Notes under the pieces: model-generated
Told to the model about the DNA's origin: nothing
The model's input: only the letters and a program-made list of their open reading frames with translations
Database searches by the model: none
DNA from: a virus
DNA length: 64,000 bases
IMG/VR virus record: IMGVR_UViG_3300028228_000176
Location: 1 to 64,000 of that record
Reading direction: 5' to 3' (one strand)
Part shown: positions 7,464 through 59,216 of the stretch, in pieces
Layout of the letters: each line of letters starts with the position of its first letter
Numbering within the stretch: position 1 is the stretch's first letter
Made by a program: the position numbers and the translations under genes

Positions 7464-7480
7464 CAAGTAACTATATTTAT

Positions 7481-7517
7481 GAGGGGGTAAGTCAGTAATA
7501 ATCTGACCTACTCCCTA
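7481..7517. promoter_or_regulatory. Intergenic hairpin
   Basis: A stem of about 12 pairs with two mismatches (GGGGGTAAGTCAG / CTGACCTACTCCC) around a 7-nt A/T loop fills most of the gap between two structural genes. No T-run follows, so it is more likely an mRNA-stability or processing element than a terminator. It resembles the hairpin after the capsid gene in position, not in sequence. Confidence 0.45.
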
Positions 7518-7537
7518 TAAATAAAATAAAAATTACT

Positions 7538-8642: not shown

Positions 8643-9778
8643 TAACCGAGAACAACGCCCAATACTACTCTGGACAACAAGGGTTTTTAGGAGATGGTGT
8701 AACAAAATCTTTTTCGTGTAGCTTTAATACAGATTTAGTTAGTGCCATATCTGGTGCTGTTAATTCTAATTTTTCAGTGAAAGTAAATGCAGTCACTGTA
8801 ACTTCTTACACAATGAGTGGGAATATCGTAACATTTACGACTGCTCCAATAGCAAACTCAACCGTATTAGTTACTTTAAACTCTGACGCTCTTATGTCAA
8901 ACTACGGAGGCTATCAGTACATTAGCCTTGTAGATGTCATAAATAACTTTATAGTGGCTTACGTCGGTGCTGGTAAGCTAATACCTAGTGTAAAAAGAAC
9001 AGATGTTATCTTTCATGCAAAAAGAGGTATGCAAGAGTTTAGCTACGATACTTTAAGGAGTGTGAAATCTCAAGAACTTAATATATCGCCAAGCCTTACT
9101 GCAATTATTCCACAAGATTATGTAAATTATATTAGAGTATTGTCAATAGATAGTCTAGGTGTTAAAAGAATAATTTACCCAAATAACAATTTAACAATAA
9201 ATCCTAACGAAGTTAATATACAAGATATTGATGGAGTTCCAATCCAAGGTGGTTTTGGAGAAAATATTGAAAGCGCTCCTGCAAGAACTGTAGATAGATG
9301 GAGAGGCGCTGACACATCAAAGATAACTGGTGGTTATACAACTGACCAATTAAACGATGGAGTAGACTCTTTTGAAAATGGATTTGACTCTGGATATTGG
9401 GGCGGAATTGATGGACAAAGATACGGACTTGAGCCACAATATACACAAGTAAATGGATTTTTTGGTATAGATGATAGGAGAGGTGTGTTTACATTCTCTA
9501 GTAACTTGAAAGGTCGCTTAGTAGTCATTGAGTACATCTCAGACGGGCTATCTTACGATTTGGACACAAGAGTGCCAAAGATGATAGAAGAGGCTATGTA
9601 CGCTCACATAATCCACGCTATACTTTCAGGTAGAATAAACCAACCAGAGTATGTTGTAAATAGATTAAAAAAAGAAAGAAGCGCAAAACTTAGGAATGCT
9701 AAGATAAGATTATCTAACATAAAAATTGAGGAGATAACTCAAGTTATGAGAGGAAAATCTAAATGGATAAAATCGTAA
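8618..9778 (+). CDS. Tail ring / tail tubular protein 2
   Basis: An intact 386-residue protein. An N-terminal beta-rich region (about 20-90) resembles the first domain of podoviral fibre-attachment proteins, followed by YISLVDVINNFIVAYVG and SYDTLRSVKSQEL, recognisable in ring proteins of Cellulophaga and crAss-like phages. The C-terminal 80 residues are basic and helical. Probably stacks under the portal with the upstream protein to form the tail collar. The role is inferred from family resemblance and gene order. Confidence 0.65.
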   Translation: MPNPNGGLITENNAQYYSGQQGFLGDGVTKSFSCSFNTDLVSAISGAVNSNFSVKVNAVTVTSYTMSGNIVTFTTAPIANSTVLVTLNSDALMSNYGGYQYISLVDVINNFIVAYVGAGKLIPSVKRTDVIFHAKRGMQEFSYDTLRSVKSQELNISPSLTAIIPQDYVNYIRVLSIDSLGVKRIIYPNNNLTINPNEVNIQDIDGVPIQGGFGENIESAPARTVDRWRGADTSKITGGYTTDQLNDGVDSFENGFDSGYWGGIDGQRYGLEPQYTQVNGFFGIDDRRGVFTFSSNLKGRLVVIEYISDGLSYDLDTRVPKMIEEAMYAHIIHAILSGRINQPEYVVNRLKKERSAKLRNAKIRLSNIKIEEITQVMRGKSKWIKS

Positions 9779-26246: not shown

Positions 26247-26272
26247 CACTAACCATATACTCAACGTTATGC
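26247..26272 (-). repeat. Short attC-like site
   Basis: Gene strand GCATAACGTTGAGTATATGG followed by TTAGTG: an R''-like box GCATAAC and an R'-like box GTTAGTG with almost no variable middle. The TAA stop of the upstream gene lies inside the first box. It is very short for an attC, so it may be a reduced or damaged site. Confidence 0.45.
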
Positions 26273-26661: not shown

Positions 26662-27598
26662 TTATTGATTAAAGATTATCCCTTTAAATATATGCTCAAT
26701 TACATCTACTGTCCAGCCGTTTCCAAGCATTTTATAACGTTGGCTATTGCTTACGTGGTTTGTGTAATTGTCTGGCACAGTTTGCAACCTCTCGCATTCA
26801 ATAGGCGATAATTTTCTAAATCCATTTATAAAAACTGCGTAATTATCTTTTTGAACAGTTGTGATAGTGTTTGTTTTGCCATCGTATCTAATTTCTATTC
26901 TTTGTTTTGTTAAGCCTTTAGTTTTCATTTTTCCGTCTTGTCTTTTGCCAGCAACAATATAACGCCCACGCATTGCACCGCAAAAAACCAATTGCCTTCT
27001 ACTTTTTTAAAGTATTGGTTAAGGTTTCCTCCTTTCGCATAATTAGCATCTATGCAATAAGACTTATTTCGGTCAACAATGCCGTTTTCAATAATATCTG
27101 CTAAATAAATTTCTTTATTTTTGGTGGTATTACGCTTGGTATGTTAGTCCAATAAAGCCTAACTCTATTTTGAGCAGAAACCAAAGAACTATTTATAATT
27201 ACAGGTTCGCAACCTAAATAACTGCTAATAACATCTTGGTATTCCTTTTTCATTTTTACATTCTCCATAAGGAAATACTTTGGTTTCAATTCGTTTTTAA
27301 GCCTAACAAACTCAAAAAACAATTTACTTCTTTCATCTTGGAAGTTCAGTTGTTTCCCTGCAAAACTAAACCCTTGACATGGGCTACCCCCAATTAGCAA
27401 ATCAATTTCGTGGTTAAGCATTCCCTTGTTTACAAACTCAACGCTTCCTAATTGTATAGTATTTGGATAGTTTTCCATAGTTACCTTTATTGCGTATTTA
27501 TCTATCTCGCTTGCAAAATACTTATCTACTTTAATCCCTAATTTATCTAGGGCAATTTGTCCGCAACTCATTCCATCGAATAAACTTAATACATTCAT
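26662..27598 (-). CDS. C5-cytosine DNA methyltransferase (two frameshifts)
   Basis: Joined, about 313 residues. It starts MNVLSLFDGMSCGQIAL (SAM-binding motif I), has GGSPCQGFSFAG (motif IV with the catalytic Cys, near residue 74), FLMENVKMKK (motif VI, ENV) and QNRVRLYW (motif VIII), and ends with ECERLQTVPDNYT and KMLGNGWTVDVIEHIF (motifs IX-X). Breaks near 27120 and 27010 are at A-runs. It methylates cytosine in a sequence set by its target-recognition domain, probably to hide phage DNA from host restriction. No partner endonuclease is nearby. Confidence 0.75.
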
Positions 27599-28010: not shown

Positions 28011-30779
28011 TTATTTAACTTCACAAGAGCCACCTCCTCCACAAGCAATCTCTCCTGCTAAATTAGTATCGTCATCCACCTCTATTATGTTAATCAAATC
28101 AACATCAACTAAATGCTTCATTCTTTCGTGATAGTCAGCTTCCGAGATGTCCTCAAATGGGGCTTGGATATAAGTTCCTCCATCATAAGGAAGTACAGAC
28201 AACCCATTGTAATGGTTTCTGTTAGCCCACATCCACTCGCCTGCTCTATCCCATTCGTCTGCTTTCAAAGAAACAGTGGCTGAAACATTATGTGTATTAG
28301 AACCTTTCCTATGTCCTGGAACCACCCACTCTTGAGCAACTTTTTTAATTCTTTCTAACAAATCAAAAGGAGACTCATCTCTCAAGATAGAACCTTTAGG
28401 CGCTTTTTGAGGTATACTAATTACAGCCGTATCGTGTGGTCTGAAATATTCGTCTTCGACTAACTCTGGATGATTTTTACTCAAGTACTGGTACATTGAT
28501 TCATTCTTCCCTACACGTATTCTACGGATGTAATAATCGTTATGCCAAGCGTGAATACCAGAAGAAGTTCCAAGAGCAAGAGAGGTCGTCCCAGCAGGCT
28601 TTACTGTTGTTGTTCTAGCCGCTGCATTAATGCCGATTAATTTTGCAACTCTAGAGTTCTCTTTGTTCACAACCTCGGCTGCTTCTGTCATATCGTAATT
28701 AAGGACTGCTCCAGAACCAATCCCAGTCATTGATACACCAATTAAAGCGTCTTTCTCAGTAGTTTCTCTCCATATGCTTCTTAGGTAATGGAACTCTGTA
28801 TATCCCGCTTGTAATGTACCTATGAATGCAGCGTGTTTAACTCTGTTATTTAGGTCTTCTTGAGACTCAATGTTAGATGCGTTTACTTCGCATAGGTTAC
28901 AAAACTGAAAAGGTCTTAAAGCAATTTCGCAGTTATGAACAAGAACTCCGCTAGAGTTAAGATAGTTGTCGTCGTCTGTCTTAGTTAGTATATAAAAGTT
29001 TTCGTTATCTTCAACGGTGAGGTCATAAACATCTTCTTTTTCTCCAGTGTAAACTAATTCCGTAACATAAACAGCTTCTGATAAATCAACGTTTATATCT
29101 TCTTTAGCATACGAGTCGTATTCTTCTTTGTGTTTGCGGTTCCAATCAATTAGAGTTTTTTCTATTTTGTCGGTACTCCAACCCCATCTTTTCCCGTTTG
29201 CCGCTATACTATTCCTAGACCCTATCAATTGACGGTGTCTCTTGTTTAGTTTGTGAACTGGATTTCCCATCCCATTCATATTCAATGCCCTCTTTTTTAA
29301 GTTGTCCTTCGCTAGTATCAACTCAAGATTTTCTAGTTTATCATTTGTTGAGTCTTCGTCAATATGGTCTATGTTTCTGCTGTTGTTATAACTTCCATTG
29401 TGAAACTCCCACATCATTCTATACTGCTTAGAATAGCCATTGGATTTAGAGTTTATATGTCGGTATGACTTTTTATTATTCTTGTTGCTAAAAGAAAAGA
29501 ATTTCTCCAGCTCCAATCCTACAGAATCTTTTGCTTCAACCCAACCTCCTGAAGGTAATGCTAACCTATGGTCGTCAGTACACTTAAACTTTGATCCATC
29601 CGAAAGACAAACCTCAACAGTTTCTTTGTAACCATTGTGATAAGCAACCGCTTGTTTTATCTCTGACTTCCAACCTTGGAATTTATTGTCATAAACAAAT
29701 ATTTTATTCGTATATTTTTCTCTTGCTGAATAAACAGGAAACGACTCCTTCCCTTGAGACTCTTCCGCCAACTGAGCTATTGTAACTCCGTTTCTTCCAT
29801 CAGCAGTAGCGACTATTGTATCTCCTGAAAAACAACAAGGATTTGTTCCCCAATCTTTGTCGTTGTTAAAATAAATTCCTGGCTCCCCAGCATTGCTAAG
29901 TTCAACACGTTTCCATAAATTCATAAAGAACTCTTCAGTAACTTTGTGTCTCATTAATACAGCAGAGTTGTTTGCTCTACCTCTTTGCGGATTTGATTCC
30001 CACCAACTGCCAGACTTACAACTAATCATATCATCATCATCAGCAGAAAACAAAGCAATTAATGCAGCTCTTCTTATGCCTCCAGCTAAGACTGCATCGG
30101 CAATATGACAAACAATATCGTGAGTTTCTACGGTAGTTAAATTCTCTCCATCTTTTTTAGAGTCAAGAACTGCTGTGATATTGAACACGCATTCTTTTAA
30201 TGGCTGAGGGCCTGGAGCTTTGCCGCCTGACGTAACTAGCTGTGCACCCTTTGGTCTAATGTCTGAGTAATCAAAGTCAACTTTAGAGTTTCTTTTGTCA
30301 CCCATATAAGACTTCATTAATACTTTTATGGCATCGGCCCAGCCTTCAATTGAATCTCCAATTAAAAACCTTTTAGTTCTTTTAGAATGAGGTTTGCTTA
30401 TAGAAGGTAGTTGGCTAACGTGATGATTTTGCACTGAGTACCCTACTCCAGTTCCACCAAGAAGTAGAAACATAATCTCATTGAAGGAATCGACACTATC
30501 AATAGGTAGGTATGCGCAATTATAAACTCTGTTAGGAGATATCTCTATCGACTTACCTCCAAATTGTAACGACCTCATTGAAGGTAGAATTTTTTTGTCG
30601 TATACTAACTCGTAAGCTTCGTCAATTTGTTTTTCTAATTTTGGGTACTTCTTAACGTGCATTGCTTTGTTGCGGTCAACAAGTTCTGACCACGTTTCTC
30701 TTCTGTTTAACTCTGGCACAAATTTAGCATATTTCATGTATACTGTAATATCTGACAGGATTTTATTTGATTTCTCCAT
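28011..30779 (-). CDS. nrdJ: B12-dependent (class II, monomeric-type) ribonucleotide reductase with intein
   Basis: 922 residues including a 301-residue intein; the spliced enzyme would be about 621. Extein features: LLLGGTGVGYSV (residues 105-116), NPC/CEIALRPFQFCNLCEVN across the splice site, PAGTTS (728-733), and a C-terminal redox pair in IACGGGGSCEVK. These fit the adenosylcobalamin-dependent RTPR family, which makes deoxynucleotides in one polypeptide without NrdB. The enzyme would raise dNTP supply during replication. The gene overlaps the upstream membrane-peptide gene by one base (TAATG), indicating translational coupling. Confidence 0.8.
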   Translation of the reverse strand: MEKSNKILSDITVYMKYAKFVPELNRRETWSELVDRNKAMHVKKYPKLEKQIDEAYELVYDKKILPSMRSLQFGGKSIEISPNRVYNCAYLPIDSVDSFNEIMFLLLGGTGVGYSVQNHHVSQLPSISKPHSKRTKRFLIGDSIEGWADAIKVLMKSYMGDKRNSKVDFDYSDIRPKGAQLVTSGGKAPGPQPLKECVFNITAVLDSKKDGENLTTVETHDIVCHIADAVLAGGIRRAALIALFSADDDDMISCKSGSWWESNPQRGRANNSAVLMRHKVTEEFFMNLWKRVELSNAGEPGIYFNNDKDWGTNPCCFSGDTIVATADGRNGVTIAQLAEESQGKESFPVYSAREKYTNKIFVYDNKFQGWKSEIKQAVAYHNGYKETVEVCLSDGSKFKCTDDHRLALPSGGWVEAKDSVGLELEKFFSFSNKNNKKSYRHINSKSNGYSKQYRMMWEFHNGSYNNSRNIDHIDEDSTNDKLENLELILAKDNLKKRALNMNGMGNPVHKLNKRHRQLIGSRNSIAANGKRWGWSTDKIEKTLIDWNRKHKEEYDSYAKEDINVDLSEAVYVTELVYTGEKEDVYDLTVEDNENFYILTKTDDDNYLNSSGVLVHNCEIALRPFQFCNLCEVNASNIESQEDLNNRVKHAAFIGTLQAGYTEFHYLRSIWRETTEKDALIGVSMTGIGSGAVLNYDMTEAAEVVNKENSRVAKLIGINAAARTTTVKPAGTTSLALGTSSGIHAWHNDYYIRRIRVGKNESMYQYLSKNHPELVEDEYFRPHDTAVISIPQKAPKGSILRDESPFDLLERIKKVAQEWVVPGHRKGSNTHNVSATVSLKADEWDRAGEWMWANRNHYNGLSVLPYDGGTYIQAPFEDISEADYHERMKHLVDVDLINIIEVDDDTNLAGEIACGGGGSCEVK
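28932..29834 (-). other. Intein with HNH homing endonuclease inside nrdJ
   Basis: Residues 316-616 of the precursor. The N-terminal splicing block starts CFSGDTIV, block B is near residues 398-405 (KCTDDHRL), and the C-terminal block ends GVLVHN followed by Cys617 of the extein. The middle carries RNIDHIDEDSTNDKLENLEL (469-488), an HNH-type endonuclease core. Insertion lies in the conserved active-site segment NPC/CEI, a typical intein site. All residues for splicing (Cys1, His-Asn, Cys+1) are present, so it is probably active. Confidence 0.85.
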
Positions 30780-37745: not shown

Positions 37746-38285
37746 TTAAAGTGTTGTTAATTTAGTTTCTACGTCTTTCGTTAAGGTATACTTTCCTTTG
37801 ATGTCATCAATACTACCACCTTTTTTAATATACTCTTTAGCTTTGTTGAAGCTATCGCTATCTGACACTAAGGCTTTCTTAGGGGTTGATTTGTCGTGGG
37901 TGTTACTTGCGTCGCTGTCTGCTGTGTCGTCTATTAAAAATAGATTCCCAAGAGCATACTTCTTACCGTAACTTGAAGAGGAACCAAACTTCTGTGGCAT
38001 CTGCATACCCTTTTGCTCAAGGTCAACGCCAACTATACTATTTGCGTGTATAGCATTCTCTCCATCTGAGATAGTGGCAGTCATTTCCATAATAGGGAAT
38101 GGCTCTGTACTTAATAGCTTCTCTTTCACTGTAACTGTTACTCCTAATTCAATGAGGAAAGGCTTGGTAGCTTCTAGGATATCTTCTGCACTACGGAAGT
38201 AGTACTTACCGAAGGCGTTGAACCTACTCTTTTTTGATTTGAATTGTGTCTGGATTATTGCCAGCTTGTCGTTAATTGTTTTCAT
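37746..38285 (-). CDS. erf: Erf-family single-strand annealing protein
   Basis: 179 residues. The block KFGSSSSYGKKYALGNLFLI (about 99-118) and the basic N-terminal NAFGKYYFRSAEDIL are typical of the ERF superfamily. With the adjacent exonuclease and SSB it forms a phage recombination module for concatemer formation and repair. It is the first gene of this transcription unit: a promoter-like -7 box lies 20 bp upstream inside a perfect palindrome. Confidence 0.75.
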   Translation of the reverse strand: MKTINDKLAIIQTQFKSKKSRFNAFGKYYFRSAEDILEATKPFLIELGVTVTVKEKLLSTEPFPIMEMTATISDGENAIHANSIVGVDLEQKGMQMPQKFGSSSSYGKKYALGNLFLIDDTADSDASNTHDKSTPKKALVSDSDSFNKAKEYIKKGGSIDDIKGKYTLTKDVETKLTTL

Positions 38286-38432: not shown

Positions 38433-39402
38433 TCATTCTCCACAATCTGAAAAAACTTCACAACTCTCTGTTTCGTCAAAAAGAGATTCTTGAAAATTAG
38501 TATCAATACTATCGTCTTTAACTATTTTATCAAACCCTTTACTCATTTCAATCATTTCTTTTACACTTACAAAGTTCCTAAAAAACACATTTTTATATTC
38601 TTCTGTTGGTACTTTTTCCATTTCATATCCTGTAATAGTTTCTCCAAATTCATCTTTATATTCGTAATAAACTTTTTCAGGAACTCTACCATTAGGATTT
38701 CCGTATTTATTTTCAAGGTAATCTAAAAATTCAAAATAATTAATATCATCTTTTACCATTTGCATCAACTTATTGTTACTCTTCTTATAACAAGCACCAC
38801 AATTACCCTGATACCCTTTTAAAATCAATCTAAATTTTTGTTGATCCCAACCTAAAAATTTATATGCTTTTTTTGTCATTGGTTGCATATTTTTTTGAAT
38901 TAAAGGGTAAACTAATCTTAATTCGTCTTTTTTTAGCGTTCATCCTATCTATTTCGTCAATTCTAATACCTAATGCTAAATAATATTTTTCCTTACCCCA
39001 AATACTTTTTGCATAGTTTTTAATAGGATTCATTTTTAATTCCCTTGTACAATGTAAACGAGAATGATTTGGTATTCCATACTTCTTTACAACTTCTTCA
39101 AAAGGTGTATCTGTTGTATTTTTCCAATCTGTATTTCTTGTAGCAGAATTATAATCAACTATTTTAAAACCTGTACTTTTTCTTTGATTATGGTAAACTT
39201 TGGCTTCAATCCATTTAATGTCCAACCCAAATTCTTTTTCGCATTTATGTACAAACTCTAAAGTTTCGTTACTTTCAACACCTGTGTTAGCAAAAACAAA
39301 AAGCATCTCATATTCGTTTTGCATTTTTTTATTTAACCAATTCCCCATAAAAGCAGAAGTTTCTCCTCCGCTAAATGTAACTAATAATTTTTTCTTACTC
39401 AT
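38433..39402 (-). CDS. PP-loop ATP-pyrophosphatase, PAPS reductase-like (one frameshift)
   Basis: About 322 residues when one extra A near 38943 is removed. The N-terminal TFSGGETSAF is the PP-loop, with FVFANTGVESNET and HCTREL as in PAPS-reductase / DndC-like proteins. After the break come YPLIQKNMQPMTKKAYKFLG and a Cys pair in GNCGACYKKSNN that may bind a cluster or zinc. Phage members may act in sulfur transfer or base modification. The exact reaction is not known. A single-gene cassette with attC-like DNA on both sides. Confidence 0.6.
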
Positions 39403-39421: not shown

Positions 39422-39457
39422 GCCTCACAACGCTGTTTATAGCCAAACCATTAGCTA
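39422..39457 (-). repeat. Short attC-like hairpin
   Basis: Gene strand TAGCTAATGGTTTGGCTATA then AACAGCGTTGTGAGGC. The word GGTTTGGCTAT recurs in the site at 47508-47574, and the right end resembles GTTRRRY. The middle is almost absent. It separates the sigma-factor gene from the PP-loop gene. Confidence 0.45.
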
Positions 39458-40265: not shown

Positions 40266-40982
40266 TCATATTACATCATTGAGAGTGTCAATCTCATTCT
40301 TCAATTCATCTCCGATATTCCTTGCAATAGTTTTTCTGTTGCAAGATAGCATCGTGGCTATTCTCGTAATCGTTATCTTTTCATTCCCTTCGTTAATAGA
40401 CAACATACAATCGTATATGTTATCTTTTGTTACCACTGTACTTCTACCTATCACCGAGCCAACTATCCTTAGTTTTTCTACTTTAGTAAGGCCACACATT
40501 GGCTTAAATATTACTTTCCTAGACTTGTTTGGCGGCTGAGTTGTCATCTCTCGGTTCCCGATGTCTTCAATTGTAAACTCTATTAACGAACTTCTTAGGG
40601 CAAAGGTAGTAAAACCATTTGACTTATTACAGATAAACTTTGCAATTGTATCAAATTTTTCTTGACCCATATTTTTATTTAAGTATCTAAGGACAAACAA
40701 GTGCCATCTAAGAGACTTTAGTGTATTGATTTTATTAGGGGTTGCAAATAGCTGGAAGCATTGCATCGTACCATCTTTATAGTACCATCCCCATTCATAA
40801 GATTGTGTCGGCTCATCTGTTGTTGGCAAGCTCCTATATATAACTTGCCTTTTGTGCAAGTATTCTATTTTTCTTTCGTGCGACATTAGCTTGTTAATTA
40901 ATATACTTAATAGCCTAATGTCACATCCGCAACAAGTGAAGCCGTTTGCTATATTTTTTAAATAAAAAAATGTTTGTTTCAT
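40266..40982 (-). CDS. Helix-turn-helix protein, replication or regulatory
   Basis: 238 residues, or 206 if translation starts at the ATG at 40886. A C-terminal helix-turn-helix is likely (ITITRIATMLSCNRKTIARN, about 205-224), and the N-terminal part carries a Trp-rich fold (YEWGWYYKDGTMQCFQL). A palindromic element found at two other places overlaps codons 20-35 and the alternative start, suggesting autoregulation or a replication-initiator role. I do not recognise the family. Confidence 0.5.
   Translation of the reverse strand: MKQTFFYLKNIANGFTCCGCDIRLLSILINKLMSHERKIEYLHKRQVIYRSLPTTDEPTQSYEWGWYYKDGTMQCFQLFATPNKINTLKSLRWHLFVLRYLNKNMGQEKFDTIAKFICNKSNGFTTFALRSSLIEFTIEDIGNREMTTQPPNKSRKVIFKPMCGLTKVEKLRIVGSVIGRSTVVTKDNIYDCMLSINEGNEKITITRIATMLSCNRKTIARNIGDELKNEIDTLNDVI
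40879..40925. promoter_or_regulatory. Palindromic element, copy 1
   Basis: Arms TGCGACATTAGC and GCCTAATGTCACA (near-complementary) around a 22-bp A/T-rich centre. The same design occurs at 49362-49410 and 53107-53154, the former matching this copy (read on the minus strand) at about 40 of 49 bases. It overlaps the possible start codon at 40886. Confidence 0.65.
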
Positions 40983-41675: not shown

Positions 41676-41712
41676 ATCTTTAGTGCTTTGTTATTATTTA
41701 ATTGTAATCTTT

Positions 41713-42366
41713 TTATTTTCTTATTGATACATAAGCTGCATCTATTAAATTCATTAGTGAACTCTTAAAAGCTATTGACGAAGACTTACCTCCAATACTC
41801 CATACATTCAACTCGCTAATAGTATACTCCCTATCGTAAGTTTTCCAATCGTATATCGTGTAGTAATAATCCCCAAATCTTACAATCCATTCAACGCTAC
41901 TCTTCTCTCCTTCCTCAAACGTCTGCGTGGGCTGTCCTAGCGCCTCTACTAACTCAAAATACTTAACACCTCTTAGTGTATCAACCTTGCTGCTACCCTT
42001 CCACATATCGCTTGTAATTTCGTCCTGTAATATAGTCTTTATATTGAAAATATAATTATTGATATTACATAGCTCAGGGTTCGTTTCTACAATGGTTTCA
42101 ATATCGTGTCTCATCTCTCTATCTGTCTCACACAAGTCTTTCATTTTTGAAATGTTATTTATCACTGAAGAATGGTTCCTACTAAGGTAAACACCCATCA
42201 TTTTTAATGTTGACCTTGTGTATGTTCTTGCTAAGGTACAAAACATTTGCCTGGCTGTAACTAATTCTCTACTTCTGTTTGGCGATAGTACTTCGTTTTT
42301 ATTAAGACCGTAGTATTTACATACTATTGTCATTATGCTGTCTAATGATTCTAATTCTCTACTCAT
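41713..42366 (-). CDS. DnaA domain IV-containing protein
   Basis: 217 residues. The first 80 match the DNA-binding domain IV of DnaA: VCKYYGLNKNEVLSPNRSRE, LVTARQMFCTLARTYT and YLSRNHSSVINNISKM, the last corresponding to the signature GRDHSTV. The AAA+ ATPase domain is absent. The second half (about 125-217) is a separate beta-rich domain with KSSVEWIVRFGDYYYTIYDW. It probably binds the phage origin, perhaps the 20-bp iterons at 52.9 kb, and recruits host replication proteins. Confidence 0.65.
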   Translation of the reverse strand: MSRELESLDSIMTIVCKYYGLNKNEVLSPNRSRELVTARQMFCTLARTYTRSTLKMMGVYLSRNHSSVINNISKMKDLCETDREMRHDIETIVETNPELCNINNYIFNIKTILQDEITSDMWKGSSKVDTLRGVKYFELVEALGQPTQTFEEGEKSSVEWIVRFGDYYYTIYDWKTYDREYTISELNVWSIGGKSSSIAFKSSLMNLIDAAYVSIRK

Positions 42367-42619: not shown

Positions 42620-42654
42620 GGTTCAATTTTTTGAATGTTTCTTATAACGTTGTT
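42620..42654 (-). repeat. 35-bp dispersed repeat, copy 2
   Basis: Differs by one base from copy 1 (38355). It follows directly the last cassette of the large array; its left part GTAACAACGTTATAA can act as a minimal R''/R' junction. With copy 3 at 48514 it flanks the array as a direct repeat. Confidence 0.85.
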
Positions 42655-42664
42655 ACAGGCAATA

Positions 42665-43567
42665 CTACATTAGTCCTCCGAAAATGTGAGCAATTACATT
42701 TACAGTCCATCCATTGCCGAGCATCTTATACCTATCTGTATTTGATACTCCTTCTGTATATTTATCAGGTACGGTTTGTAATCTCTCACATTCAACAACT
42801 GTAAGTCTATGTATATTTTCATCTCTGTCTTTTGTGAAAGTAGATTTTTGTCCTTTGTGCATATTTGAAGTTAAGCAACTTGCTTTTCCATCAGCATACC
42901 ACAACTGTTCTAATCTTGTTTTATTTCCAAATTTACCAAGCAACCAGTTTGGGTAATTATTATGAAACATAGGTGTTTGTAAAATATCATATACTACTGT
43001 TTTATTCTCTTTTGGTAATTCATTTAAAGGAATATTAGTCCAATAAATTCTCGGTCTGTTGTGTGCTGAAAATAGATTTGAGTTTATTCGTATTGGCTCA
43101 ACTCCCAACGCTTCTGTAATAATATCTTCCCACTCTTTTTTCATTACTACATTTTCAAGTAAAAAGTATCTTGGTTTTACTTCATTCAGAACTCTTACAA
43201 ATTCCCAAAACAAACCACTTTTACCATCAAATCCTTTCCCATTTCCAAAAGAACTAAAACTTTGGCAAGGACTACCACCGAAAAGCAAATCTATTTTTGG
43301 CAAATCACTACCTTTTAATTCCGTAACGTTTCCAATTTGTTTTGTGTTTGGAAAGTTTTTTTGTGTTATAAAAATTGCTTTCTCATCAATCTCCGAAGCA
43401 AAGTAGTTATTCACCTTTAACCCTGCTTTCTGCAAAGCTAATTGTCCACAACTCATCCCATCAAAAAGGGATAGTGCGTTAATCCCGTACTGCCTGTAAC
43501 ACGTGCTATAATCAATAGCGGATTCTGTACTATCCGAAAGTTTCTGCTGTTTATTATCTTTTGTCAT
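42665..43567 (-). CDS. C5-cytosine DNA methyltransferase, second copy
   Basis: The ATG at 43567 (MTKDNKQQKLSDSTES) is chosen because the longer frame reads through the cassette boundary. 300 residues. Motif I NALSLFDGMSCGQLAL, motif IV FGGSPCQSFSSFG with catalytic Cys, motif VI FLLENVVMKK, motif VIII NRPRIYW, motifs IX-X VVECERLQTVPDKYT and KMLGNGWTVNVIAHIFGG. The same subfamily as the methyltransferase at 26662-27598, but clearly diverged in the target-recognition part, so it probably has a different specificity. Frame intact. Confidence 0.85.
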   Translation of the reverse strand: MTKDNKQQKLSDSTESAIDYSTCYRQYGINALSLFDGMSCGQLALQKAGLKVNNYFASEIDEKAIFITQKNFPNTKQIGNVTELKGSDLPKIDLLFGGSPCQSFSSFGNGKGFDGKSGLFWEFVRVLNEVKPRYFLLENVVMKKEWEDIITEALGVEPIRINSNLFSAHNRPRIYWTNIPLNELPKENKTVVYDILQTPMFHNNYPNWLLGKFGNKTRLEQLWYADGKASCLTSNMHKGQKSTFTKDRDENIHRLTVVECERLQTVPDKYTEGVSNTDRYKMLGNGWTVNVIAHIFGGLM

Positions 43568-43592
43568 AAATTTAAAGTTTTGTGTTATTAAT

Positions 43593-43623
43593 CCGCTACT
43601 ACTCATAGCACCATCGTTAGCGG
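43593..43623 (-). repeat. Reduced attC-like hairpin
   Basis: Gene strand CCGCTAACGATGGTGCTATG then AGTAGTAGCGG: six perfectly paired end bases and an R'' box CGCTAAC that contains the stop codon of the upstream gene. A clear GTTRRRY box is missing, so the site is degenerate. Confidence 0.45.
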
Positions 43624-43952
43624 TTATTAAGGTAGTCCCATAATTTACCACTATCAGAAAAATCAATATTCTTTCCTTTATCTGTAATCATTCCATCTTT
43701 ATATTTTACTCCAAAATCCAATTCAAAACAAAAATATTCAATCCAACTTTGACCGTGTTCGCAAAGTTCTAAGTCATTATTCTCAACTTGTAAAACTTTC
43801 ATCAAAGCGTTATTTATAAGATGATTTTCGGGTAATAAATTTGCTTCAAAAGCATTTGTAAATACTTCCGATAATTTTTTAGCAAATTCATTATCATATT
43901 CATATTGTTTTCTTAATGCTTCAATGCTTTCAATAAATAATTCTCGTGTCAT
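43617..43952 (-). CDS. Small cassette protein, unknown function
   Basis: 111 residues, acidic (MTRELFIESIEALRKQYEYD; QSWIEYFCFELDFGVKYKDG). It resembles a widespread type of short protein found in phages and mobile elements, with no known role. The stop TAA is inside CGCTAAC of the downstream attC-like site; another such site lies upstream at 43971, so this is a one-gene cassette. Confidence 0.6.
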   Translation of the reverse strand: MTRELFIESIEALRKQYEYDNEFAKKLSEVFTNAFEANLLPENHLINNALMKVLQVENNDLELCEHGQSWIEYFCFELDFGVKYKDGMITDKGKNIDFSDSGKLWDYLNNR

Positions 43953-43970
43953 AATTTTTAATTAAACAAC

Positions 43971-44066
43971 CGCTAACACACGGTATAGTTAAAAAGCCTA
44001 TTAAAATTTGTATTTGAATTGCAAGGTAGTGGTTAGGCTTTCAAACCATACCGCAATTCGTTAGGT
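43971..44066 (-). repeat. attC-like site, best example
   Basis: On the gene strand it starts ACCTAAC (fits RYYYAAC) and ends GTTAGCG. After a short unpaired spacer, CGGTATGGTTTGAAAGCC pairs with GGCTTTTTAACTATACCG (15 of 18), then a variable loop follows. 96 bp. The R box, spacer, L stem and variable terminal loop are the standard attC architecture. The stop codon of the preceding methyltransferase is inside the R'' box. Confidence 0.75.
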
Positions 44067-44621
44067 GTAATATTCACTAAGGCAAATGCTATTATCAACC
44101 TCATTGCCAAAAACCGCCCAGCCTTTTCGATCACGTCTTGCAAACATTTCCAGTCGGGGTTCTTCGCTTACCGTTTCAATTAAGTCTTGGAAAAATTCAG
44201 GCTTTTTGCTATGTCGTTTTTGCCTTTTGTGTTCCCACCAAGTACTATCTATCCTTTTTACTTTCGGCATCTTACCACGCCTTGCAAGTATCAAAAACTC
44301 GGTCGTAGGGCAGTAAACCCCTCCTTGCCCTGTACCCATAGGTTTTTTGCACCAAGTTAATGTTTGGCAATACTTCAACCCCCACGCACTTAATACGGCA
44401 AAAGCATCAGGTAAATATTTTTGAGTAGTCCATAAGTAAACCTCACAGTTACCATCACAAAGGCTTTTTACTGGTAGTGCCTTTATATCTTCTACCGTCA
44501 TCCATTCGTAAGGTAGTGGTGCAGGTTTATTTGCTTCTCCTTGCACCAAAGCCTTTTTACTTCCGCTACCCCAAATGCCGTATTTCCAAGGCGGGTCTAT
44601 TACTATCGTTTTATATTTCAT
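44061..44621 (-). CDS. MT-A70-type adenine DNA methyltransferase
   Basis: 186 residues. The catalytic motif DPPW at residues 9-12 (TIVIDPPWKYGIWGSG), YLWTTQKYLPDAFAVL, GQGGVYCPTTEFLILARRG, and the C-terminal KPEFFQDLIETVSEEPRLEM with ARRDRKGWAVFGNE fit the MT-A70 family of N6-adenine methyltransferases. Likely protects phage DNA. Single-gene cassette with stop codon in ACCTAAC. Confidence 0.8.
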   Translation of the reverse strand: MKYKTIVIDPPWKYGIWGSGSKKALVQGEANKPAPLPYEWMTVEDIKALPVKSLCDGNCEVYLWTTQKYLPDAFAVLSAWGLKYCQTLTWCKKPMGTGQGGVYCPTTEFLILARRGKMPKVKRIDSTWWEHKRQKRHSKKPEFFQDLIETVSEEPRLEMFARRDRKGWAVFGNEVDNSICLSEYYT

Positions 44622-44650
44622 CTTTCGTTATTTTAATCCGTTCATACTAC

Positions 44651-44705
44651 ACCTAACACTGTATAAAAGCCATAGAAAAAACGGCTCATATACTAAACGT
44701 TAGTA
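44651..44705 (-). repeat. attC-like site
   Basis: Gene strand from TACTAAC to GTTAGGT (perfect GTTRRRY). An inner stem AGTATATGAGCC / GGCTTTTATAC with a T-rich loop. 55 bp. The R'' box includes the stop codon of the upstream gene. Similar in sequence to the site at 45513-45568: both contain GCCGTTTTTTCTATGGC on the gene strand. Confidence 0.75.
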
Positions 44706-45453
44706 ACAATTATTTTTTTGCCCCACTCTTGCGTGACCAATCTCTACGGCTTTTTCTGATATGTCGCAACCTATAAAATTTCTATTTAAGTCTTTGCAAA
44801 CTTCTGCCGTTGTAAAAGAGCCACCGTAAAAATCAGCTACTAAATCACCTTTATTACTACTTGCTTTTATTATTCGTTCAAGTAGTGTTTTTGGCTTTTG
44901 TGTTGCGTATCCTGTATAGTCTTTGTGTTGTGAACTTAACATAGGTTTTAAATCATCCCACCAATCAATAGGTAAAGATTTGTCGTAATTATAAGTAACT
45001 CCGTTTAATACTTTTTATAAGAACCTCCGTTTTTGTTATCAATATAAAGCTCATCTAAATTAAATTTATACTCTTTAGTTTTAGAGTACCAAAATATATT
45101 GTCGTGCTTATTGCTAATACTTTTTTGCTTTTACCTCCGCTTCTGTAACACCAAATTATTTCATTCAAAATCTATCATAACCAAATACATCATCCAAAAT
45201 ACACCTTACCCAGTGGCTTATCTTTGTGTCCATTTGTAAATATATACTTCCAGTATCTTTTAAAATACGGTGCATTTCTTTTATTCTTGGTATGTAGTGT
45301 TCTTCTATTATTTCTCGTTTAGGTTTTAAAATCTTGGTAGTCTTTGAATTTTCTACCTGTTCCATAAAGTATATCGCAGTAAATTAAATCTACTGTACTA
45401 TCTTTTATTTCTGCCATTAACTCTAAATTATCACTTAATCTTATATCAATCAT
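44700..45453 (-). CDS. N4/N6 amino DNA methyltransferase (about five frameshifts)
   Basis: Joined, about 252 residues: MIDIRLSDNLELMAEIKDST, IYCDILYGTGRKFKDYQDF (catalytic region, a variant of D/NPPY), REIIEEHYIPRIKEMHRILK, then NEIIWCYRSGG, IFWYSKT, TGYATQKPKTLLERIIKAS and the SAM motif VADFYGGSFTTAEV. One base is missing near 45320, 45165, 45120, 45105 and 45018, mostly in A or T runs. The order of motifs (catalytic before SAM) is that of the beta class. Stop codon in the attC-like R'' box. Confidence 0.65.
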
Positions 45454-45512
45454 CTTTATAAATATTTTAATTCGTACCTCATTAATTTGCCAACGCTCTG
45501 AAAAATAACAGT

Positions 45513-45568
45513 AACTAACAATGTATAAAAGCCATAGAAAAAACGGCTCTTATACCCAACCGTTAGCC
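45513..45568 (-). repeat. attC-like site
   Basis: Gene strand GGCTAAC to GTTAGTT with inner stem GGTATAAGAGCC / GGCTTTTATAC. 56 bp. The loop GTTTTTTCTAT is identical to that of the site at 44651-44705, suggesting the two were copied from one another or acquired from the same source. Confidence 0.7.
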
Positions 45569-46207
45569 ACAAGCTGCTACATTATCGCTTTTAATGAAGT
45601 TTCCCCATTGTTCAGCCATAGCTTTTGCAATTCCGCTAAAAGTTTTACTGCTTTCCTTTTGGCTTATGTTCTTAAATTGATATTTCTGCCCTCGTTTTTT
45701 GCCCCCTGTATTACTTGGTAAGTACGGCTTATATTCGCTTACTATTTTGGTTGGGCTTAATAGTGGTAAATTTTTAATCCACAGCAGAGTTCTTTTACTA
45801 TAAGGGTGTCCGTATTCATAAGGTTGCACCGCTTGGCTTTGTTTAGGCAATCCAACTACTTTTAACGATGTTGGGTTCTCAACAGCAATATAAGGTATAG
45901 GAGCGTTCAATAATTTCATAAACAAATCCTTCGCTTCCATTGCTTTATTAAATCTTTCTTGGCTTAAATTTCCTGCTGTTGGGTACATCCATCTTGCACC
46001 AGCTCTACTAATATAAGTGCAAGGTGGGTGCGCTATCATAAGGTCATATTTACCACTATACGCTTCTACAACTGCATCACCTACAATATGCCATTCAGGT
46101 TTACCACGACTACATTCTTGCATATCGCAACTATAAGCCTCAAATCCTATTTCTCGGAAAGCCTTACAAACTTCTTGGCTCTCCTCACAAGCTATTAATA
46201 TTTTCAT
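45563..46207 (-). CDS. DNA cytosine methylase-like protein
   Basis: 214 residues. MKILIACEESQEVCKAFREI (motif I region), CDMQECSRGKPEWHIVGDAV, the catalytic-type IAHPPCTYISRAGARW (Pro-Cys, near residue 60), and AVENPTSLKV (ENP instead of ENV). It belongs to a short methylase-like family common in phages and often in mobile cassettes. Target and activity are not established. Stop codon TAA lies in GGCTAAC of the downstream attC-like site. Confidence 0.65.
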   Translation of the reverse strand: MKILIACEESQEVCKAFREIGFEAYSCDMQECSRGKPEWHIVGDAVVEAYSGKYDLMIAHPPCTYISRAGARWMYPTAGNLSQERFNKAMEAKDLFMKLLNAPIPYIAVENPTSLKVVGLPKQSQAVQPYEYGHPYSKRTLLWIKNLPLLSPTKIVSEYKPYLPSNTGGKKRGQKYQFKNISQKESSKTFSGIAKAMAEQWGNFIKSDNVAACG

Positions 46208-46246
46208 TCTATTTAATTTTAGTTCTTAATTTACCACAGCCAGATG

Positions 46247-46308
46247 GCTAACACGGTATATAAAACAGCTTCCTATCGTCAGCCGATTTCATATACAAAC
46301 CGTTAGGC
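46247..46308 (-). repeat. attC-like site
   Basis: Gene strand GCCTAAC (perfect RYYYAAC) to GTTAGCC. GTATATGAAA pairs with TTTTATATAC as the L stem, with further pairing near GGCTGACG. 62 bp. The stop codon of the upstream gene, when its frame is restored, falls exactly in GCCTAAC. Confidence 0.75.
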
Positions 46309-47149
46309 ACAATATTTTATTAATTTTTGCCAACGCTCTTTTGGTTTTTCAAACCAATTGTGGTATTTGCTCTCGTAAGAATAAATAAACCTCTTCCTGT
46401 GTTATATAAGGTGTAGAAATCACATTGCTTCTATCCCCGTAATAATCTTCAAATTTATCATTGAATATTTGTTTTATTGTTGGGATTAAAGTTTTATCTT
46501 CAATTACTATCTTATAGTTTCTTAATGTTTGTTTTTCATTAAGCACCTTCCACACCTTGCTCCCCATCCTGCATATCCTAAAATCTTCTTGCAATGGTAA
46601 ATATTTTTTACTCCTTTTATCATCCGCAACAACTAAAATGCTATTTAATTTAAACTGTTTTCTTTTATTTAGCTTGCCACTTACTGGTCTTTTGTAAATA
46701 TTCAAACAGCATCGTAATTCCCTGTCAGTATATACTCTATTCCCCAAATCTTCACTATGTATTAAATCAAACTTAAATAAAGAGCGTGTTTTGTTTAGTA
46801 GTTTTATGCTCCCAATAAAAGCTATGTAATCTCCTTGCTCAACTGCTTTATTGTAAAAACTTCTGAATAAGTTGCCACTATCACCAAATGGGGGGTTTCC
46901 AATAACACACCTACCTTTAAAGTATGGCAAATCTAATTCAAGGTAGTTCTTTTGTTCAATGTTTTCTGCTTCTGGTTCAATATCAAATGCAAGGTAGTTG
47001 TTATCTAAATATGGTAAAAACACTCCTGCTCCTGCACTTGGTTCAAGCCATTCAGTTATGTTTTCAACTCCAATTACTTCTTTTGTTTTCTTTACACAAT
47101 ACTCTGCTAAATCAGAAGGTGTGTAGTATTTGTCTAAATTTATTTTCAT
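46303..47149 (-). CDS. Adenine-specific DNA methyltransferase, NPPF type (one frameshift near the end)
   Basis: About 282 residues. MKINLDKYYTPSDLAEYCVK, LEPSAGAGVFLPYL (SAM motif I), FDIEP, CVIGNPPFGDSGNLFRSFY (catalytic NPPF, near residue 85). The frame as given stops at 46349, but one indel near 46380 restores SKYHNWFEKPKERWQKLIKY with a stop at 46303 inside GCCTAAC of the attC-like site. It probably methylates adenine in host-type restriction sites. Confidence 0.7.
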
Positions 47150-47204
47150 ATTCTTATATTATTAAATTAAAAAAATCCCTCCCTAAAAATTAAAAAATAC
47201 AGAT

Positions 47205-47268
47205 GCCTAACACTGTGTCATACGTAAGTTTGTGAAAAACAAACCAACGCATACACTTAACGTTATGC
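47205..47268 (-). repeat. attC-like site
   Basis: Gene strand GCATAAC to GTTAGGC (perfect GTTRRRY). AAGTGTATGCGTTGGTTTGT pairs with ACAAACTTACGTATGACACA with a few mismatches. 64 bp. It lies 5 bp after a small gene. Confidence 0.7.
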
Positions 47269-47507: not shown

Positions 47508-47574
47508 GCATAACAACACCTATAAATCATATTTTTCGTTCCTCAAAATCCGCTTCATAGCCAAACCGTTAGGT
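47508..47574 (-). repeat. attC-like site, first of the large array
   Basis: Gene strand ACCTAAC (perfect RYYYAAC) to GTTATGC. GGCTATGAAGC lies opposite ATGATTTATAGG as an imperfect L stem. 67 bp. It follows a terminator hairpin, so the array starts just after a transcription stop. Confidence 0.65.
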
Positions 47575-48473: not shown

Positions 48474-48692
48474 TTAAACTCGGCAGCCTTTATTGGTTGT
48501 CGGGTTTTTTTGTGGTTTAATTTTTTGAATGTTTCTTATAACATTGTTGTATTCCATAATAATTTTTTTCGCCTTCAACACGTGCTCACTTAATACGTCT
48601 TGTATGTAGTTTTTTAAGTCTTTATTTGCTTTAACCGCTAATATCTTTAACGGTTGCACATCTTCTATTTTTATATCTATAAGTTTTTTCAT
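48474..48692 (-). CDS. Small ribbon-helix-helix / antitoxin-like protein
   Basis: 72 residues as read. The first 44 (MKKLIDIKIEDVQPLKILAV and KDLKNYIQDVLSEHVLKAKK) look like the short helical proteins often annotated as antitoxin-like. The rest is translated from the 35-bp repeat and a hairpin and may not be real coding; one indel in the A-run near 48565 would end the protein earlier. No toxin partner seen. Confidence 0.45.
   Translation of the reverse strand: MKKLIDIKIEDVQPLKILAVKANKDLKNYIQDVLSEHVLKAKKIIMEYNNVIRNIQKIKPQKNPTTNKGCRV
48514..48548 (-). repeat. 35-bp dispersed repeat, copy 3
   Basis: Two mismatches to copy 2. Unlike the other copies it is not next to an attC-like site, so it may be an unoccupied target or the upstream border of the array. 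Next to it a plus-strand hairpin (CTCGGCAGCC / GGTTGTCGGG) followed by seven T at 48480-48511 looks like a terminator. Confidence 0.8.
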
Positions 48693-49361: not shown

Positions 49362-49410
49362 GTGGGACAATAGGGTATTAAGTTATATAATTAACAAGCT
49401 AATGTCGCAC
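49362..49410. promoter_or_regulatory. Palindromic element, copy 2
   Basis: GTGGGACAATAGGG ... GCTAATGTCGCAC around an A/T-rich centre, about 40 of 49 bases like copy 1 read on its minus strand. It lies in the intergenic space between two leftward genes. Confidence 0.65.
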
Positions 49411-52216: not shown

Positions 52217-52860
52217 GTACAAAAGAAATGTAATTGATTCAATTATTAGACTAACGGCTAAATATCTTCGACCAATGATATAATTTTGTCGACAAACGAC
52301 GTTTTGGTCCTTCGTTAGTAAATTATAGTACTATGTAATGCACAGTAATGACAAACGTAATGGAATGGAGTATTACCTGCATTGGGGCCTTCATAAAGTA
52401 TATTAAAGTGAATTAATATAACATAAACAGAAAATACAACTTGTATAAACATACCAAGGTAGACGTTTGGGCTGTTATTATAACAAGGCAAACAAGACAT
52501 AAAACAATAGACATGCTAGCCAGGGAATGAAGCAGCCCGGAAACTTAGATATGTTAACAGGTTTTACAACTTCAGTAACAGTAAAAAGTGCTGGTTAATT
52601 AGTAGGGTTAAAAGTTAGTCAGGAAGGTAGTTTGAGTATCCCCTCCCTCAGCCCTGTCATACCGTACGTTACAAAGCATCACTTAAAGTATTACTTTAGG
52701 TAAAAGGTAGATAGTATGGAGGAAAAAGGTGAATATATTGGTGTAATATATAAAAAGGTAAAAATAATATTCCTTTTTTTGTAAAACACTATGGGGGGTT
52801 TGATTTGGAAAACGTTTTCGGTTTTAGTTTGCGTATTGTTTAGCGTAGTATAACCCCCAA

Positions 52861-52960
52861 TCCCTATATATCTAACACAATCCCTATATATCTAACACAA
52901 CCCCTATATATCTGACGTAATCTGTAAATATATCACATAATCCATACATATATGGAAAGA
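52861..52960. repeat. 20-bp iterons
   Basis: Five head-to-tail units of exactly 20 bp: two identical (TCCCTATATATCTAACACAA), a third with three changes, and two more diverged units. The two-turn period places each unit on the same DNA face, as in origins bound by initiator proteins. The DnaA domain IV protein or HTH protein of this phage are candidate binders. Confidence 0.8.
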
Positions 52961-53106
52961 GTTTCTATAAAGGCTACCCCATGTTGTTTTAGGGGGGTAT
53001 CTTATGACGATGCTTAGTGTGTGGTGTTATGCATTAGGGGGTATAAATTTTTTATTAAAAATAAATAGTGGATAAATCAGTGTTATATGCCACTGCATTT
53101 CAAATA

Positions 53107-53154
53107 GTGCGACATTAGCCTATTTAGATTATATTGCACAACCTAATGTCCCAC
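53107..53154. promoter_or_regulatory. Palindromic element, copy 3
   Basis: GTGCGACATTAGCC ... ACCTAATGTCCCAC around a 20-bp centre, next to the iterons and upstream of the rightward genes. It shares arms with the elements at 40879-40925 and 49362-49410. Confidence 0.65.
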
Positions 53155-57420: not shown

Positions 57421-58959
57421 ATGTCTAACGGAATCGTTAAGAATCTAAACTTCGGAGACGAAGGTAAAAATAAAGTGTTTGAGGGTATCTCAAAGTTAAC
57501 ACAAGCCGTTAGTTCCACATTAGGAGCTAGCGGTAAGTGTGTAATGCTAGAGGACGGCTCAGGCAAACCATTAATTACAAAGGATGGTGTAACAGTGGCT
57601 AATGCAGTTATACTCTTAGACCCAGTAGAAAATATGGGTGCAACGCTGTTAAAAGAAGCGGCAAGGCAAACAGTTATTGAAGCAGGCGACGGAACAACAA
57701 CAGCTACGGTATTAGCACACGCAATACTAGAAGAGGCTTTTAAAAACAAAAACTATAACTCAAGAGAGATTCGCAATGGTATAAATTCTGCCGTTGACAA
57801 AGTAGTTACATACTTAGAAAGTATCTCACATAGCGTCACTGGTTCTATGTTAACTGAAGTTGCTACAATATCATCTAACAATGACGTAGAGCTTGGAGCT
57901 TTAATTGCTAAGGCTTTTGAAGACGTTGGCGAGAATGGTGTAGTTAGTATGGAAATATCTAACGACGAAGAAACATCAGTAGACATTGTAGATGGCGCTT
58001 CTATTGATAAGGGGTTAAAGAATGACCACTTTATTAATAACAAAGAAAAAGGTACTTGCGAACTTAACAATCCACTTGTATTAATTGTAGAAAGCAAAAT
58101 ACCTAATGTAAGAAAAGTTCAAGGAATTTTAGAATACGTTATTAAGAATAACAAAGAATTACTTATTATTGGAGAAGCAGATGAACAGTTAGTGACTGCT
58201 TTATCAATGAATGTAAATAAAGGTAACATCAAAGCCAATATTATTGATTCCCCAGACTTTGGAATTAATAGGAAAGAAACGCTTCAAGATTTTGCTGCCT
58301 TAACTGGCGCTACAGTGATTAACGAAGACTTGGGTGACGATATAGACCTAATTGATGTTAGCCACTTAGGTACGTGCTTAAAAGCCGTTACAACAAGAGA
58401 AGATACTGTCATTCAAGTTGAAGGCACTAACGATGCTGTTGTTGGTTTAATTAAGCAAATAAAAAAGCAGATTAAAGAAACAAAGATTAACGGAAAGAAG
58501 CACCAATTAGAAAGAAGGCTATCAAGGCTTGCTGGAAAGGTTGGTGTAATAAAAGTTGGGGCTAATTCAGAGGTTGAACTCAAAGAAAAAAGCGATAGAG
58601 TTGAAGATGCAATATGTGCAACTAAAGCAGCTATAAAAGAAGGTATTGTTCCAGGAGGAGGAATTGCTTTACTCAACGCTAGTACGATTGTTTTAGGCTT
58701 AAATGCAGGTGAAGACATTTTGCTAAAAGCTATTCAGTCTCCATTCAATGTTATTATGAAAAATGCAGGGATGGAAGACTTTGAAAAACCAACCGAAGAA
58801 GGTGTAGGATATGATGTAGTAACAGGTAAAATGGTGGAGATGATTAAGTTTGGAATTATAGACCCACTACTCGTAACTAAAAGTGCTTTGAAGAATGCTG
58901 CATCTGTAGCCAATACTATTCTTGCAACTGATTGTGTAATTAATAATCTAAGAGCATGA
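57421..58959 (+). CDS. groEL: Phage-encoded GroEL-type chaperonin
   Basis: 512 residues, slightly shorter than bacterial GroEL (about 545). Contains LITKDGVTVANAV, the ATP motif GDGTTTATV (near residue 80), a GroEL-like apical domain, and VEDAICATKAAIKEGIVPGG with the conserved catalytic Asp. The C-terminal GGM tail is absent. Probably folds the phage capsid or other virion proteins, or replaces host GroEL during infection. Overlaps the co-chaperonin gene by 4 bp. Confidence 0.9.
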   Translation: MSNGIVKNLNFGDEGKNKVFEGISKLTQAVSSTLGASGKCVMLEDGSGKPLITKDGVTVANAVILLDPVENMGATLLKEAARQTVIEAGDGTTTATVLAHAILEEAFKNKNYNSREIRNGINSAVDKVVTYLESISHSVTGSMLTEVATISSNNDVELGALIAKAFEDVGENGVVSMEISNDEETSVDIVDGASIDKGLKNDHFINNKEKGTCELNNPLVLIVESKIPNVRKVQGILEYVIKNNKELLIIGEADEQLVTALSMNVNKGNIKANIIDSPDFGINRKETLQDFAALTGATVINEDLGDDIDLIDVSHLGTCLKAVTTREDTVIQVEGTNDAVVGLIKQIKKQIKETKINGKKHQLERRLSRLAGKVGVIKVGANSEVELKEKSDRVEDAICATKAAIKEGIVPGGGIALLNASTIVLGLNAGEDILLKAIQSPFNVIMKNAGMEDFEKPTEEGVGYDVVTGKMVEMIKFGIIDPLLVTKSALKNAASVANTILATDCVINNLRA

Positions 58960-59216
58960 AAGCAGTAGGGAAATACATATTAATAGAGCCTGCGAAGGAG
59001 AAGGAGTTTTCTACCAAAGGTGGGTTAATTTTAGGTGAGAACCATAGAGAAGATATAAGGTACAGAGAAGCCACCGTAAAGACAATTGGTACTATGGTAG
59101 CTGGAGTTAAAGACGAAGATGTTATCTATTACGATAGACACGCAGGGTTTGATATGGAAGTAGACAAAGTGATATATAAGGTAATAAAAGAATCAGACGT
59201 TGTAGTTGTTTTATGA
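58956..59216 (+). CDS. groES: Phage-encoded GroES-like co-chaperonin
   Basis: 86 residues. MKAVGKYILIEPAKEKEFST followed by KGGLILGENH has the mobile-loop layout of GroES, and DVIYYDRHAGFDMEVDKVIY the second strand pair, ending ESDVVVVL. It should cap the phage GroEL. The ATG overlaps the groEL stop (ATGA). Confidence 0.75.
   Translation: MKAVGKYILIEPAKEKEFSTKGGLILGENHREDIRYREATVKTIGTMVAGVKDEDVIYYDRHAGFDMEVDKVIYKVIKESDVVVVL

Follow-up and report, generated by a model that had tools for sequence, protein, structure and literature searches.

Phage methyltransferase genes that stop within attC-type boxes: an array consistent with inverted, integrase-less integron cassettes

Sites of the attC type and clusters of attC sites lacking integron integrases (CALINs) have already been published in virulent phages, including Polaribacter phage P12002L, together with their methyltransferase cargo and with recombination by IntI1 in Escherichia coli, a P12002L site being among those recombined (Qi et al., 2023, PMC9892861). 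In class 1 integrons, the recombination core site supplies the stop codon of ORF-11, a short leader open reading frame (ORF) in attI1 (review PMC8876359). Baltic muminviruses lacking one methyltransferase show reduced plating on LMO6 (Nilsson et al., 2020, PMC7077304). Here we describe an array of seven gene units joined at attC-like sites in a 64,000-nucleotide stretch of viral DNA (hereafter the window: positions 1 to 64,000 of IMG/VR virus record IMGVR_UViG_3300028228_000176), in which several genes take their stop codon from the recombination box itself.

The seven units follow one another on the minus strand from 47568 to 42653, each with the layout, in gene direction, ^C-hairpin-GTTNNN-gene-NNNTAA^, where ^ marks the crossover. 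All seven sites have outer boxes RYYYAAC and GTTRRRY enclosing an inner imperfect stem, the arrangement expected of attC. Site calls rest on our own covariance model, R1, built from 18 sites of the window and its relatives, and not on IntegronFinder's attC model; R1 recovered six of the seven array sites (four strongly, two weakly but outside the training set) and a stem scan located the seventh. In gene order, sites and cassettes are as follows (L001 and L002 are viral relatives compared below):

47508-47574, minus strand: attC-like site 1 (R1 26.9 bits, E 0.0024, outside the training set), with box ACCTAAC, inner hairpin and start box GTTATGC; left end of the array and left breakpoint relative to L001
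47263-47568, minus strand: cassette 1, ^C-hairpin-GTTATGCACC-gene (stop 47273)-GGTGCATAA^
47205-47268, minus strand: attC-like site 2 (R1 48.1 bits, training sequence)
46303-47262, minus strand: cassette 2, a gene with an interrupted frame that, from its sequence, would end in GCCTAAC
46246-46308, minus strand: attC-like site 3 (R1 55 bits, training sequence), common to L002
45563-46302, minus strand: cassette 3, DNA methyltransferase gene 45563-46207 (phrog_757), stop in the box
45513-45568, minus strand: attC-like site 4 (R1 69.3 bits)
44700-45562, minus strand: cassette 4, N6_N4 DNA methyltransferase (Pfam PF01555), interrupted frame, stop in the box
44651-44705, minus strand: attC-like site 5 (R1 70 bits)
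44061-44699, minus strand: cassette 5, MT-A70 methyltransferase gene 44061-44621 (PF05063, E 4.5e-22), stop in the box
43971-44066, minus strand: attC-like site 6, long loop (regular expression and stem scan, top score in the window)
43617-44060, minus strand: cassette 6, 111-aa gene 43617-43952 of unknown function, stop in the box
43494-43622, minus strand: attC-like site 7, long loop (R1 E 0.0095, outside the training set)
42653-43616, minus strand: cassette 7, C5 cytosine methyltransferase (PF00145), ORF 42665-43666, with a TAG stop ahead of the box

The two ends of each cassette are mutually complementary, as in a closed circle, over 10, 8, 8, 6, 10, 10 and 10 bp in cassettes 1 to 7 (8-10 bp in six of the seven, with cassette 1 counted from the second GTT of site 1); at cassette 7, for example, the site 7 start box GTTACAGGCA is complementary to the cassette end TGCCTGTAAC. 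Within a single site the match between the two sides extends over no more than 3-5 bp, cassette ends do not match the start of their neighbour, and among 5,040 start-to-end assignments the true one alone reaches the observed match sum. The hairpin stems covary, with 175 double-change cells compared with 82 in shuffled and 14-57 in slid versions. Beyond the MT-A70, N6_N4, C5 and phrog_757 methyltransferase families of the array, genes downstream of related sites include N6_N4_Mtase in 21 of 67 cases, as well as MT-A70, D12, C5 and Dam methyltransferases and one Mom protein.

An initial annotation held that the stop codons of the genes ending at 43617, 44061, 44700 and 45563 are the TAA of the site box, and direct reading of the sequence bears this out: each of these minus-strand stops is a TAA followed by CG, within CGCTAAC, ACCTAAC, TACTAAC and GGCTAAC, respectively. 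The same was claimed for 46303, where the box GCCTAAC is indeed present, but the frame that runs into it spans 32 codons and has no start, so that this case needs an interrupted gene (ORF 46349-47149). A sixth case, at 26267, is weak:

26262-26271, minus strand: isolated box GCATAAC ending a 39-codon ORF, without a complete site by the covariance model

The other two array genes lack a box stop, ending at 47273 and 42665, about 10-12 nt ahead of the crossover. Among 75 distinct related phage sites preceded by a gene of 60 codons or more, the stop was exactly the box TAA in 21 and fell within 30 nt in 55; an even spread over 0-30 nt would put about 2 stops at any one distance. The tight link between stop and box is real yet no rule, holding for 21 of 60 TAAC boxes.

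Near-identical phages differ by the gain or loss of exactly such units. L001 is a 17-kb contig whose aligned blocks have about 95-99.8% identity to the window (98.5-99.8% around the array). At the main site it has one cassette, where the window has seven. The flanks common to both end in ATTACACCTAAC on the left and begin with AACGTTATAAGAAACATTC on the right, and the last 122 bp of cassette 2, up to its box, recur in L001, which then joins an attI-like element. At 38390, L001 has one extra cassette, reading ...AAACCTAA^C-hairpin-GTTAGGCAC-methyltransferase-GTGCCTAA^CAATGTTATAAG..., which adjoins a repeat of that element. L002, from a 73.7-kb virus record, shares with the window only 758 bp at 99.6% DNA identity, comprising hairpin, gene and box: the match, bounded by boxes and corresponding to cassette 3, runs from the hairpin upstream of gene 45563-46207 to GTGGCTAAC, after which L002 continues with an unrelated hairpin. 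Nine Baltic Flavobacterium phage isolates (L070-L072 and L118-L123) with backbones 99.8-100% identical differ in methyltransferase/small-ORF units whose ends lie at TAAC, as do the cassettes that distinguish Polaribacter phages P12002L and P12002S. These sister-phage junctions fall at TAA^C, equivalent to G^TTA on the other strand; the shared bases on either side of the box limit the resolution to 1-4 nt. When distinct edges of shared blocks were counted over all phage comparison sets, 17 of 30 right edges and 15 of 26 left edges lay no more than 10 nt from TAAC, compared with 9.3% of random positions.

The junctions also settle which hairpin accompanies which gene. The initial annotation took gene and hairpin to move as one unit; the units do end exactly at boxes, but the hairpin that holds the stop is not the partner. 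Both the block shared with L002 and the L001 insertion at 38390 consist of hairpin, gene and TAA in that order, so that a gene moves together with the hairpin on its upstream side and the hairpin beside its stop belongs to the next unit. The match between own end and own start fits both orientations; the junctions assign hairpin to gene. Those homologues of the 45563 gene whose protein identity is 89% or more all finish in ACG and the stop in GTGGCTAAC, while more distant homologues mostly have other end points and lack the ACG tail. In three of the close homologues (L003, L005 and L006), C-terminus and GTGGCTAAC stop are kept with no site detected after them, an outcome that the initial annotation had named as contrary to its claim. 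It refutes only the pairing of a gene with its downstream hairpin, and is expected if the following hairpin belongs to the neighbouring unit.

Two further comparisons bear on orientation. At phage sites, the gene lay on the R1 model strand in 72 of 77 cases upstream and 69 of 73 downstream, whereas the corresponding figures for sites in Bacteroidota genomes were 8 of 31 and 3 of 26 (Fisher, 2.6e-12 upstream and 2.0e-15 downstream). The more stable fold was formed by the coding strand in 70 of 76 phage sites and by the non-coding strand in all 12 bacterial sites. In known integrons, the better-folding bottom strand is the one that is recombined (see also PMC9892861). Because the better-folding strand here is the coding strand, the box that the initial annotation called R'' is the crossover box (R'), as junctions and bacterial comparison also indicate, and the stop codon abuts the crossover. 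Junctions, folding strength and the comparison with bacterial sites of the same family thus all place the phage attC-type sites in inverse orientation to their genes. The order of a standard cassette, in which a gene precedes its own attC and both point the same way, is not what we find here: the hairpin travels upstream and in inverted orientation.

A short phage element resembling attI may mark the point at which cassettes join. Its core, TTATAAC-ATT-G^TT on the strand opposite the genes, was found at two insertion points, and the window holds three copies where 0 are expected:

42620-42655, minus strand: attI-like element (TAACAACGTTATAAGAAACATTCAAAAAATTGAACC) at the right array end, the right breakpoint relative to L001
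38355-38390, minus strand: second attI-like element, at which the extra methyltransferase cassette of L001 is inserted exactly
48514-48549, minus strand: third attI-like element, apparently empty, inside ORF 48474-48692

We take this core to resemble that of attI1. A pattern search for the element found only the contig of L001. That contig also carries, at 7055-8942 (against 41705-41718 in the window), a 1.9-kb insert. It contains a pair of methyltransferase genes, a single attC-like site in its interior and a fourth attI-like copy; it is flanked by a 14-bp direct repeat, AAATAAAAAGATTA, and its left end is not at a box.

No tyrosine recombinase (PF00589) was found in the 64.6-kb window record, in the records of L001-L003 and L077, or in 28 of another 29 phage records with attC sites (seven from isolates), the exception being the L102 record; serine recombinases and HUH Y1 transposases were absent from nine phage records searched. 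There being no intI gene in the phage records searched, the array is not a complete integron. A phage-encoded recombinase was rejected as the enzyme, the tyrosine, serine and HUH Y1 families being absent save in phi13:2 and the L102 record. In Cellulophaga phage phi13:2 (L117, 12003-14401), a cassette with the same hairpin is followed, 300 bp on, by a lysogeny-type tyrosine recombinase, gp038. Of 296 genomes sampled from the phylum to which a Mariniphaga metagenome-assembled genome belongs, 84 had IntI model scores above the cut-off. Since almost all the phage records searched lack a recombinase of the tested families, IntI occurs in these genomes and IntI1 recombines a P12002L site (PMC9892861), our best guess is that IntI from the host, or from a co-resident element, would act in trans.

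The exact 21-nt hairpin GAGCCGTTTTTTCTATGGCTT occurs in 42 viral contig stretches and in two genome contigs, with one real site in 84,980 genomes; the second bacterial match (L115) has no boxes around it and was dismissed as chance. At E up to 0.01 the phage-type model matched 16 of 296 genomes, and at E up to 0.001 it matched 15 of 345; the family is present at low frequency in Bacteroidota chromosomal integrons. These integrons (for example L148 in genome G267, which has intI) share with the phage sites the boxes, a short spacer of 3 and a long spacer of 6, the hairpin and the G^TT crossover. They differ from the phage array in that their genes have the opposite orientation relative to attC, and in intI, detected in the fraction of genomes given above.

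Compared with the published phages, the array is alike in its integrase-less attC sites and methyltransferase cargo, and the P12002L sites belong to this family. That account describes the usual orientation, terms the P12002L sites 'divergent' and proposes off-target homologous or illegitimate recombination for incorporation; its accessible part does not report gain and loss of cassettes between sister phages, this kind of attI-like element, the inversion or the stop at the crossover (PMC9892861). As with ORF-11 of class 1 integrons, the recombination core site provides a stop codon; unlike ORF-11, the gene that the phage box terminates is that of the cassette itself, on the strand opposite to the attC top strand. 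The earlier study of the same Flavobacterium isolates contains 0 occurrences of integrons or cassettes and does not describe the exchange junctions (PMC7077304). In the open-access literature (subscription papers and preprints lay outside the scope), we found no description of inverted phage cassettes, of the attI-like element or of natural cassette exchange between sister phages.

We consider it probable that the array comprises seven integron-type cassettes, inverted relative to attC, in the early-gene operon of a Bacteroidota phage and swapped with the aid of host-supplied IntI. Acting on the folded coding strand, IntI would cross over at G^TT on the strand opposite the genes, directly after the TAA; a gene that had lost its own end, or had been trimmed back to the boundary of the cassette, would then take the box TAA as its stop codon. 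Phage transcription from upstream presumably reads through the cassette genes towards the attI-like element, and the benefit may lie in exchanging methyltransferases against host restriction. Whether Bacteroidota phages keep an integrase-less integron system of their own—with dedicated attI-like sites in the early operon, a phage-restricted pool of inverted attC sites whose genes are read along with that operon and stop at the crossover, and host IntI swapping methyltransferases between co-infecting phages—is a broader proposal to which we give even chances. Several points weigh against these readings. The orientation statistics include sites that are partly related to one another and are limited to R1-type phages, because R1 misses the sites of the muminvirus group, which are attC-like by eye only (long loops). 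Some block edges do not lie at boxes, several being a few bases further along the linker and some outside arrays. What defines the attI-like element is no more than its sequence and a pair of insertion points, and only this phage and L001 were found to have it; the recombinase would have to come from elsewhere, as none of these phage records has an IntI gene.

The main rival is short-homology recombination, in which the annealing protein of the phage itself would join modules at conserved linkers (TAACGTT, for example), the hairpins acting as terminators or linkers. An Erf-like gene is present at 37746-38285, the records lack a site-specific recombinase of the tested families, the boxes offer 4-8 nt of common sequence at the junctions, and the edges a few bases past the box or elsewhere would be accommodated. 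Such a process does not predict the 8-10 bp match between a cassette's own ends, the covarying stems, the strand bias in folding or the insertion of a whole cassette exactly at the attI-like element, and no exchange was seen at the GTT boxes of gene starts, inner boxes that are just as conserved; we regard it as unlikely. Integron cassettes in the usual orientation, gene then its own attC, were assumed by the initial annotation and at first by us. Boxes and hairpins look attC-like in both directions, and in L004, whose gene is 92% identical, a hairpin resembling that of the window still lies downstream; that hairpin, however, is the very common one of the 42 viral stretches. Junctions in L001, L002 and the isolates place the hairpin upstream of its gene, while in bacterial sites of this family both the gene orientation and the better-folding strand are the opposite ones, and on these grounds we rejected the usual orientation, which we now hold to be very improbable. 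Least credible of all is that chance and compact genomes produce the stop-in-box pattern. In this AT-rich genome TAA is used more often than any other stop, and one in three genes that stay open as far as the box would have its TAA in frame, but neither accounts for 21 of 75 stops at exactly distance 0, 55 within 30 nt and exchange junctions that fall on that very base. As a complete explanation chance is refuted; it may still decide which genes stop in the box and which just ahead of it.

The window makes up most of a 64,636-base virus record with a GC content of 35%. It encodes terminase, portal, primase/helicase, the Erf-like annealing protein, a sigma factor and ribonucleotide reductase, as in a tailed phage; tRNA and Rfam searches of the window gave zero matches. 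DNA relatives of the array cargo are in Flavobacterium, Cellulophaga and Polaribacter phages (cassette 4 has about 85% DNA identity to Flavobacterium and Cellulophaga phage methyltransferases), and the host is therefore likely a member of the Bacteroidota, probably of marine origin. Ahead of the second attI-like element lies one further candidate:

38433-39402, minus strand: phosphoadenosine phosphosulfate (PAPS) reductase-like gene (PF01507), interrupted frame; from its sequence, probably another cassette, with a half site near 39455

Outside the main array, at 26662-27598 on the minus strand, another gene resembling C5 methyltransferases is split by an interrupted frame; such interruptions, from assembly error or decay, recur in several methyltransferase genes of the window. 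The 922-aa ribonucleotide reductase (28011-30779, minus strand) contains an HNH-endonuclease stretch mid-protein (residues about 433-555), probably an intein or inserted homing endonuclease. By eye, the plus-strand genes at 57421-58959 and 58956-59216 appear GroEL- and GroES-like. A sequence of roughly 48 bp (GTGCGACATTAGCTTGTTAATTA...) recurs between genes in both orientations at 40878-40925, 49363-49410 and 53102-53133, and a gene-poor stretch at 52838-52957 holds head-to-tail 20-bp repeats, CAATCCCTATATATCTAACA, possibly a replication or regulatory region.

Integrons are known as bacterial gene-trading devices, for example for antibiotic resistance, and virulent phages seem to have a branch of their own: in an integron-like manner, and without carrying an integrase, these viruses appear to exchange anti-restriction genes, mostly methyltransferases in inverted cassettes. 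The trade is quick enough to tell apart isolates that are otherwise 99-100% identical, and it offers a concrete route by which phages may acquire anti-restriction genes. Sister pairs of this kind provide natural material for tracing the origin of cassettes, a long-standing open question. If the proposed mechanism holds, cassette exchange would depend on a host integrase. The near-identical isolates that differ in cassette content, and whose plating on LMO6 is reportedly tied to a methyltransferase (PMC7077304), are a ready test system.

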